Shown here piece after piece: positions 1,270-21,890 of a stretch of 35,964 nucleotides of DNA (within the stretch, counting starts at the first letter, position 1; every line of letters starts with the position of its first letter). The notes under the pieces were generated by a model that did not search any database, had not been told where the DNA came from, and was given only the letters and a program-made list of their open reading frames with translations. The stretch spans positions 1 to 35,964 of the forward strand of contig CAMEET010000010.1 in assembly GCA_945915085.1 (NCBI GenBank). Reading direction: 5' to 3'. The stretch is from an uncultured Treponema sp. (GTDB lineage: Bacteria > Spirochaetota > Spirochaetia > Treponematales > Treponemataceae). Both the position numbers and the translations under genes were made by a program.

Positions 1270-1452
1270 AATTAGGTTCAATTTCGAGTATTTGATTTTC
1301 AAACCGTGGCAAGGATTGTAAGGGCTGGCGAAGCCAGTTCCGAAGCGGAGCGAAGGAATGAAGCGATAGCGTAACCCTGAAAAGCCTGATTTTTGCGAAG
1401 CAAAAAGCCACCCTAAAAATAAAAAATTCAAAACTCGACATTTGTCCTAATT
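1270..1452. repeat. Interspersed MITE-like repeat, family A copy 1 (full, with GC-rich hairpin block)
   Basis: Ends AATTAGGTTCAATTTCGAGT...ACTCGACATTTGTCCTAATT form imperfect TIRs (14/18 over TTAGG..GAGT). Both arms match the reverse complement of 21783-21890. Confidence 0.75.
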
Positions 1453-21599: not shown

Positions 21600-21782
21600 T
21601 TTCTTCTCCTATAAAAACTTCGCGTTAGTGATTGCGCAGGAGGCGCAAAATCCAAGTTTATGAAGTGTAACGCACGCAATAAACTTGGGTGATAAAAATT
21701 ATACGGATGTAATTTTTATCACATCTCCCATAAAGCACAACATTAATGTCGAGCTATTGATGACAAAACTGCATCAAAAGGA

Positions 21783-21890
21783 TTAGGTTAAATGTCGAGT
21801 ATTAATTTTTTTTAATTTGGGTGGCTTTTTGATTCTCCAGCACTTACTACCTTGCTACGGTTTAAAATCGAGAACTCGAAATAGAACCTA
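21783..21890. repeat. Interspersed MITE-like repeat, family A copy 2 (inverted, lacks the GC-rich hairpin block)
   Basis: TTAGGTTAAATGTCGAGT...ACTCGAAATAGAACCTAT; shares AAAAAGCCACCC, AAACCGTRGCAAGG and TCGAGT arms with 1270-1452 in reverse orientation. Confidence 0.75.

Follow-up and report, generated by a model that had tools for sequence, protein, structure and literature searches.

A dispersed Treponema repeat, a branch of the Flavo-1 family, has a conserved cloverleaf core that looks shaped as folded single-stranded DNA

The window, a stretch of 35,964 nucleotides from one contig of an uncultured Treponema sp., contains two copies of a short intergenic repeat, both flanked by ordinary genes. 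Copy 1 (1275–1447, + strand) is full-length, measures 173 nt from arm to arm, has TA at either flank, and sits between a histidine kinase gene on one side and a response-regulator gene on the other. Its left arm, GGTTCAATTTCGAGT (1275–1289, +), is found in only a minority of genomic copies, and its right arm, ACTCGACATTTGTCC (1433–1447, +), is inverted relative to the left arm. Copy 2 (21786–21888, – strand) lies between two divergent genes, one for an aminotransferase and the other, of 333 aa, with no confident family assignment; it is internally deleted to 103 nt, with intact arms and a core remnant at 21816–21866. In both copies, one arm is an imperfect inverted repeat of the other. Exact matches to AGGTTCWATTTCGAGT occur at 1274–1289 (+) and 21874–21889 (–), and those to ACTCGACATTTNNCCTAAT at 1433–1451 (+) and 21782–21800 (–). 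Neither match count was attained in 100 dinucleotide shuffles of the window, and the two intergenic copies with inverted arms described in the initial annotation are correctly positioned and beyond chance. We noted that copy 2 was not recovered by blastn with copy 1 as the query, and that it matched the core model at E = 0.157; it is a decayed copy from which most of the interior has gone.

The core of copy 1 is a cloverleaf that extends from P1 to P1′ (1306–1411, +; covariance model R1 match at 1298–1416, E = 9e-33) and is supported by covariation. The 5′ strand of P1, GTGGC (1306–1310), pairs with its 3′ strand, GCCAC (1407–1411), and P1 encloses P2, an internal loop, P3, and the hairpins P4–P6, with P7 between P2 and P1. 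On the 5′ side, P2, the internal loop and P3 occupy 1312–1324 (AGGATTGTAAGGG), and their 3′ strands occupy 1375–1387 (CCCTGAAAAGCCT); the loop positions are conserved and their flanks covary. P4 (1325–1337) is the hairpin CTGGC-GAA-GCCAG with a C(GNA)G triloop, the P5 and P6 hairpin region (1338–1374) is exchanged between subfamilies (GCGATAGC, GGCGCTTTGACGCC, GTAGCACGAAGTGCGTAC), and P7 (1390–1406) is the hairpin TTTTTGC-GAA-GCAAAAA, all on the + strand. This core of ~100–130 nt is the constant part of the element and is common to all copies. Its internal loop has the conserved sequence GGATWGTA / GAAWAGCC. P1 reads GTGGC/GCCAC in the host and GCGTT/AACGC, GCGGC/GCCGC or other sequences elsewhere, and core hairpins are swapped for other hairpins with pairing kept.

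In a genus-wide alignment of 69 copies, 98.2% of core cells pair, a percentage that leans upward given that the core alignments were fitted to the structure, although slid controls still fail clearly. Two-sided changes were found at 25 of the 26 core pairs, 410 cells being changed on both sides, and no core pair is invariant. Both controls for covariation, by shuffling and by sliding the partners, were passed, with values far below those of the real core. In several host copies, a far longer insert takes the place of P7, with its ends still paired (TTTTTTGGTTGG...CCAACCAAAAA; L025 1396–1604, L053 1005–1169, L060 76–236, L061 3001–3174, and L068 3001–3225).

A blastn search with copy 1 returned 44 matches in the host genome, and a covariance model built from 22 copies returned 111 at E ≤ 1 and 98 at E ≤ 1e-3. 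The two segments are members of a family whose hairpin clusters number about 100 and lie scattered over this Treponema genome; the repeat is therefore dispersed, as first described, at ~100 core copies rather than the two then listed, and the idea of a non-coding, non-autonomous-looking repeat is borne out by both kinds of host genome search. Copies are almost all intergenic, beside diverse genes. The same 22-copy model found matches in 32 of 36 genomes of the genus and in 0 of 24 genomes from other families of the order, and with a broader model 60 of 298 genomes of the phylum were positive, mostly within the same family. A hand-made element consensus had no blastn match in a plasmid collection or a phage collection, and a plasmid or phage origin was rejected on this ground. 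We found no open-access literature on these Treponema repeats. In the relative G003, a different hairpin repeat (CGTCATTGCGAGGAGCGAAGCGACGAAGCAATC; L155) lies upstream of the orthologue of the 508-aa gene of L054.

Joined flanks of the copies in genome G204 showed that most of these sites are filled in three sister species. At seven sites, orthologous element copies differed by 3.5% substitutions and 16 gap columns, against 7.2% substitutions and 331 gap columns in the near flanks and 8.3% substitutions in the far flanks. Orthologous copies hence change half as fast as their flanks; gene conversion could be an alternative cause of the slowed change. Two-sided changes and one whole-hairpin exchange were seen between orthologues. 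The check for target-site duplications and empty sites that the initial annotation had proposed could demonstrate no duplication and gave two element-less sites, both imprecise and both in one sister species; most copies are inherited in place. We also observed that an element and its downstream gene may form one conserved block between species, with both outer flanks differing (L098/L099 3009–3948; L105/L119, upstream of a 552-aa gene). At the far end of the two shared blocks we saw no element, and the idea of a gene cassette was rejected.

Next, we compared the element with the Flavo-1 family (Rfam RF01705). A degenerate pattern derived from Treponema copies had many matches in Bacteroidota, and a Treponema-only model (R2) found Bacteroidota loci at E values down to 5e-10. 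A contig binned as Bacteroidales also held a Treponema-type copy (L184 3537–3656, E = 3e-23), a probable misbinning or else a transfer. Matches to R2 and to RF01705 coincide in coordinates, on the same strand, at 7 loci. The Bacteroidota homologues found by the Treponema model scored 48–68 bits with RF01705, above its gathering cut-off of 42 bits, whereas the best Treponema copy scored 33.4 bits (E = 5e-5), below the cut-off; the RF01705 model recovered no window or host copy and also missed most of the Treponema copies scanned. The Treponema core is homologous to RF01705 in the central helix and the internal loop. Both phyla conserve the outer P1/P7 part, which lies outside the Rfam model; in Bacteroidota, 99% of P1 cells pair, with two-sided changes at all five pairs. 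The element is thus a previously unrecognised Spirochaetota branch of Flavo-1 and supplies a fuller structure of the known family. Both forms share the central P2/internal loop/P3 (AGCGG...GCGGAWAGC) and are dispersed, with copy numbers per genome from tens to more than a hundred (for Flavo-1, up to 150 or more in Flavobacteriia). They differ in that the Treponema form has the outer P1/P7 junction, the Rfam model being the inner part only, in that it has three hairpins where Flavo-1 has one, and in that the evidence presented here favours a DNA over an RNA fold.

This evidence comes from the pairs, the loops, and the folding parameters. G-U pairs make up 1.3–1.5% of pairs in Treponema and 2.8% in Bacteroidota in the model alignment, and 0.5–1.9% in the element with MAFFT and RNAalifold, as opposed to 9.6% in identically treated RNase P of this genus. 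Triloops of the C(GNA)G or another closed GNA type accounted for 100 of the 149 hairpins in the host and 77 of the 204 elsewhere in Treponema, compared with 53 of 864 background triloops and 2 of 111 hairpins in RNase P, whose most frequent named loop is GNRA. In DNA form, GAA mini-hairpins of this kind have an exceptional stability (CGCGAAGCG, Tm 88.5 °C; PMC10527192). In all three sets of copies, minimum-free-energy folds recovered 0.70–0.75 of the comparative pairs with DNA parameters versus 0.46–0.59 with RNA parameters; for RNase P the order was reversed, DNA parameters recovering pairs worse than RNA parameters. Comparative structures of both kinds were derived with RNA parameters, which biases the comparison away from DNA. 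Under DNA parameters, each of the three sets also gave better folds for the + strand than for the – strand (p ≤ 1e-8). Loop type, scarcity of G-U pairs and the fit of DNA parameters are related to one another and are not independent lines of evidence. Bacteroidota copies showed no C(GNA)G preference, and by a model-based count their C-A mismatches are rarer than G-U pairs. Collectively, the base-pairing appears adapted to a single-stranded DNA fold and not to an RNA fold.

A conventional structured RNA, transcribed from the + strand as a small RNA or a 5′-UTR element, is how Rfam files Flavo-1, and Weinberg et al. rated the family probably an RNA (PMC2864571). The multi-helix fold with strong covariation would suit this explanation, as would the position of Treponema copies, often 20–100 nt upstream of start codons. 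Between tandem genes, called with a simple purpose-made ORF finder, 64 Treponema copies are co-directional and 32 opposed (p = 0.001, raw counts), a bias that could reflect transcription. One third of these tandem copies are nevertheless antisense, and Bacteroidota copies lack an orientation bias (13 co-directional, 11 opposed). Moreover, G-U pairs occur in the element at a 5–7 times lower frequency than in the RNase P of this genus, the fold is recovered less fully with RNA parameters, and the genes downstream have no common theme; a riboswitch-like regulon was likewise rejected, the downstream genes being unrelated. In the RNA-seq study of F. psychrophilum, Flavo-1 hits occurred in sense or antisense indistinctly, many of them outside transcribed regions, and no clear function emerged (PMC9723704). 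On balance, we regard a structured RNA as unlikely.

The initial annotation read the repeat as MITE-like, with imperfect terminal inverted repeats. An ordinary MITE would have a DDE transposase that recognises the arms and a TA target duplication, and a young host subfamily does fit such a picture, with near-identical arms GGTTCAATTTCGAGT...ACTCGACATTTGTCC, TA or TT at the left, and TA at the right. By contrast, among 72 host copies examined by pattern, the left (5′) arm was present in 17, the right (3′) arm in 14, and both in 9, with both arms also in a few near-identical host copies outside the 72. Only ~20 host copies are clear arm carriers. Other species of the genus have the same core, generally without the palindromic arms, and the relative G009 has one copy with a decayed version of them. 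Exact or near-exact left arms adjoin a core, except in the internally deleted copy 2. The core, not the terminal arms, defines the element, and the arms were apparently acquired late, in a single lineage. The search for an arm-flanked transposase gene that the initial annotation had suggested covered ~0.8 Mb (34%) of the host genome and encountered neither a gene enclosed by two arms nor a transposase bearing them. Like MITEs, the element is short, non-coding and dispersed, with one host subfamily that has terminal inverted arms and TA flanks; unlike them, it is armless in most copies, conserved in an internal structured core under strong constraint that does not extend to the ends, and without a partner transposase in the part of the genome searched. 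On these observations and the imprecise element-less sites, an ordinary MITE seems quite improbable. Less probable still is that a RAYT (Y1_Tnp) enzyme moves the element as a REP/REPIN. REPINs, too, are intergenic, non-autonomous, high-copy dispersed elements that form single-stranded DNA hairpins with compensatory changes (PMC3116915), the host has one Y1_Tnp gene, and most Bacteroidota genomes checked have some. However, element-rich genomes of the genus, among them G004, G019, G020 and G021, have no detected Y1_Tnp gene, and 33 Y1_Tnp loci contained 2 element matches, near background density. The element does not flank the Y1_Tnp loci of Treponema and Bacteroidota, including the sole host gene (G000:C2:28315-28650, L126), and RAYT was rejected as the mover; nor does the larger two-junction fold, without an adjacent RAYT, resemble a REPIN. 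Separately, Y1_Tnp genes of two Aquimarina genomes adjoin group II intron pieces (L310 2117–2232; L317 2544–2662).

Integron attC sites recombine in folded single-stranded form and conserve little of their sequence, a behaviour that the proposed folding of the element would resemble. The element's copies are dispersed singly instead of in cassette arrays, and the host P1, GTGGC/GCCAC, is without GTT/AAC cores; attC was rejected for reasons of arrangement and not with an attC-specific model.

We favour, with moderate confidence, a reading in which the element is the Spirochaetota branch of Flavo-1, a dispersed intergenic repeat with a conserved cloverleaf core that probably acts as single-stranded DNA. 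When exposed, the + strand would fold into a cluster of very stable mini-hairpins around the internal loop, whose sequence is conserved. This loop would be recognised by a DNA-processing protein acting in trans, which would spread the element as a non-autonomous unit. The analysis established the copy number and distribution, the homology to Flavo-1, the covariation of the core helices, the scarcity of G-U pairs, the C(GNA)G loops of Treponema, the better recovery of pairs by DNA parameters, and the conservation of orthologues above their flanks; the single-stranded state, the recognising protein, and the copying step are inferred. Against this reading, no mover was found, the element does not flank RAYT genes, and the copies show no replication-strand bias (30 of 58 co-leading in two genomes, with the origin set near position 1 from a weak GC skew) of the kind that an IS608-like lagging-strand route might give. 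More tentatively still, but quite conceivably, Flavo-1 may be a superfamily of dispersed elements selected for single-stranded DNA folding in Bacteroidota and Spirochaetota, independently of RAYT.

These results extend a repeat family of so far unassigned function to a second phylum, add an outer structural domain missing from the public Rfam model, and give testable grounds for seeing a DNA structure in what is catalogued as an 'RNA'. Should this hold, it would point to a system for processing single-stranded DNA that is present in both of these major phyla, and the failure of transcriptome work to assign Flavo-1 a strand or a function would be accounted for. Lastly, we noted sub-threshold matches to the TD-1 and TD-2 RNAs in G204 (L410 10191–10300), a few hundred bases from an element copy.
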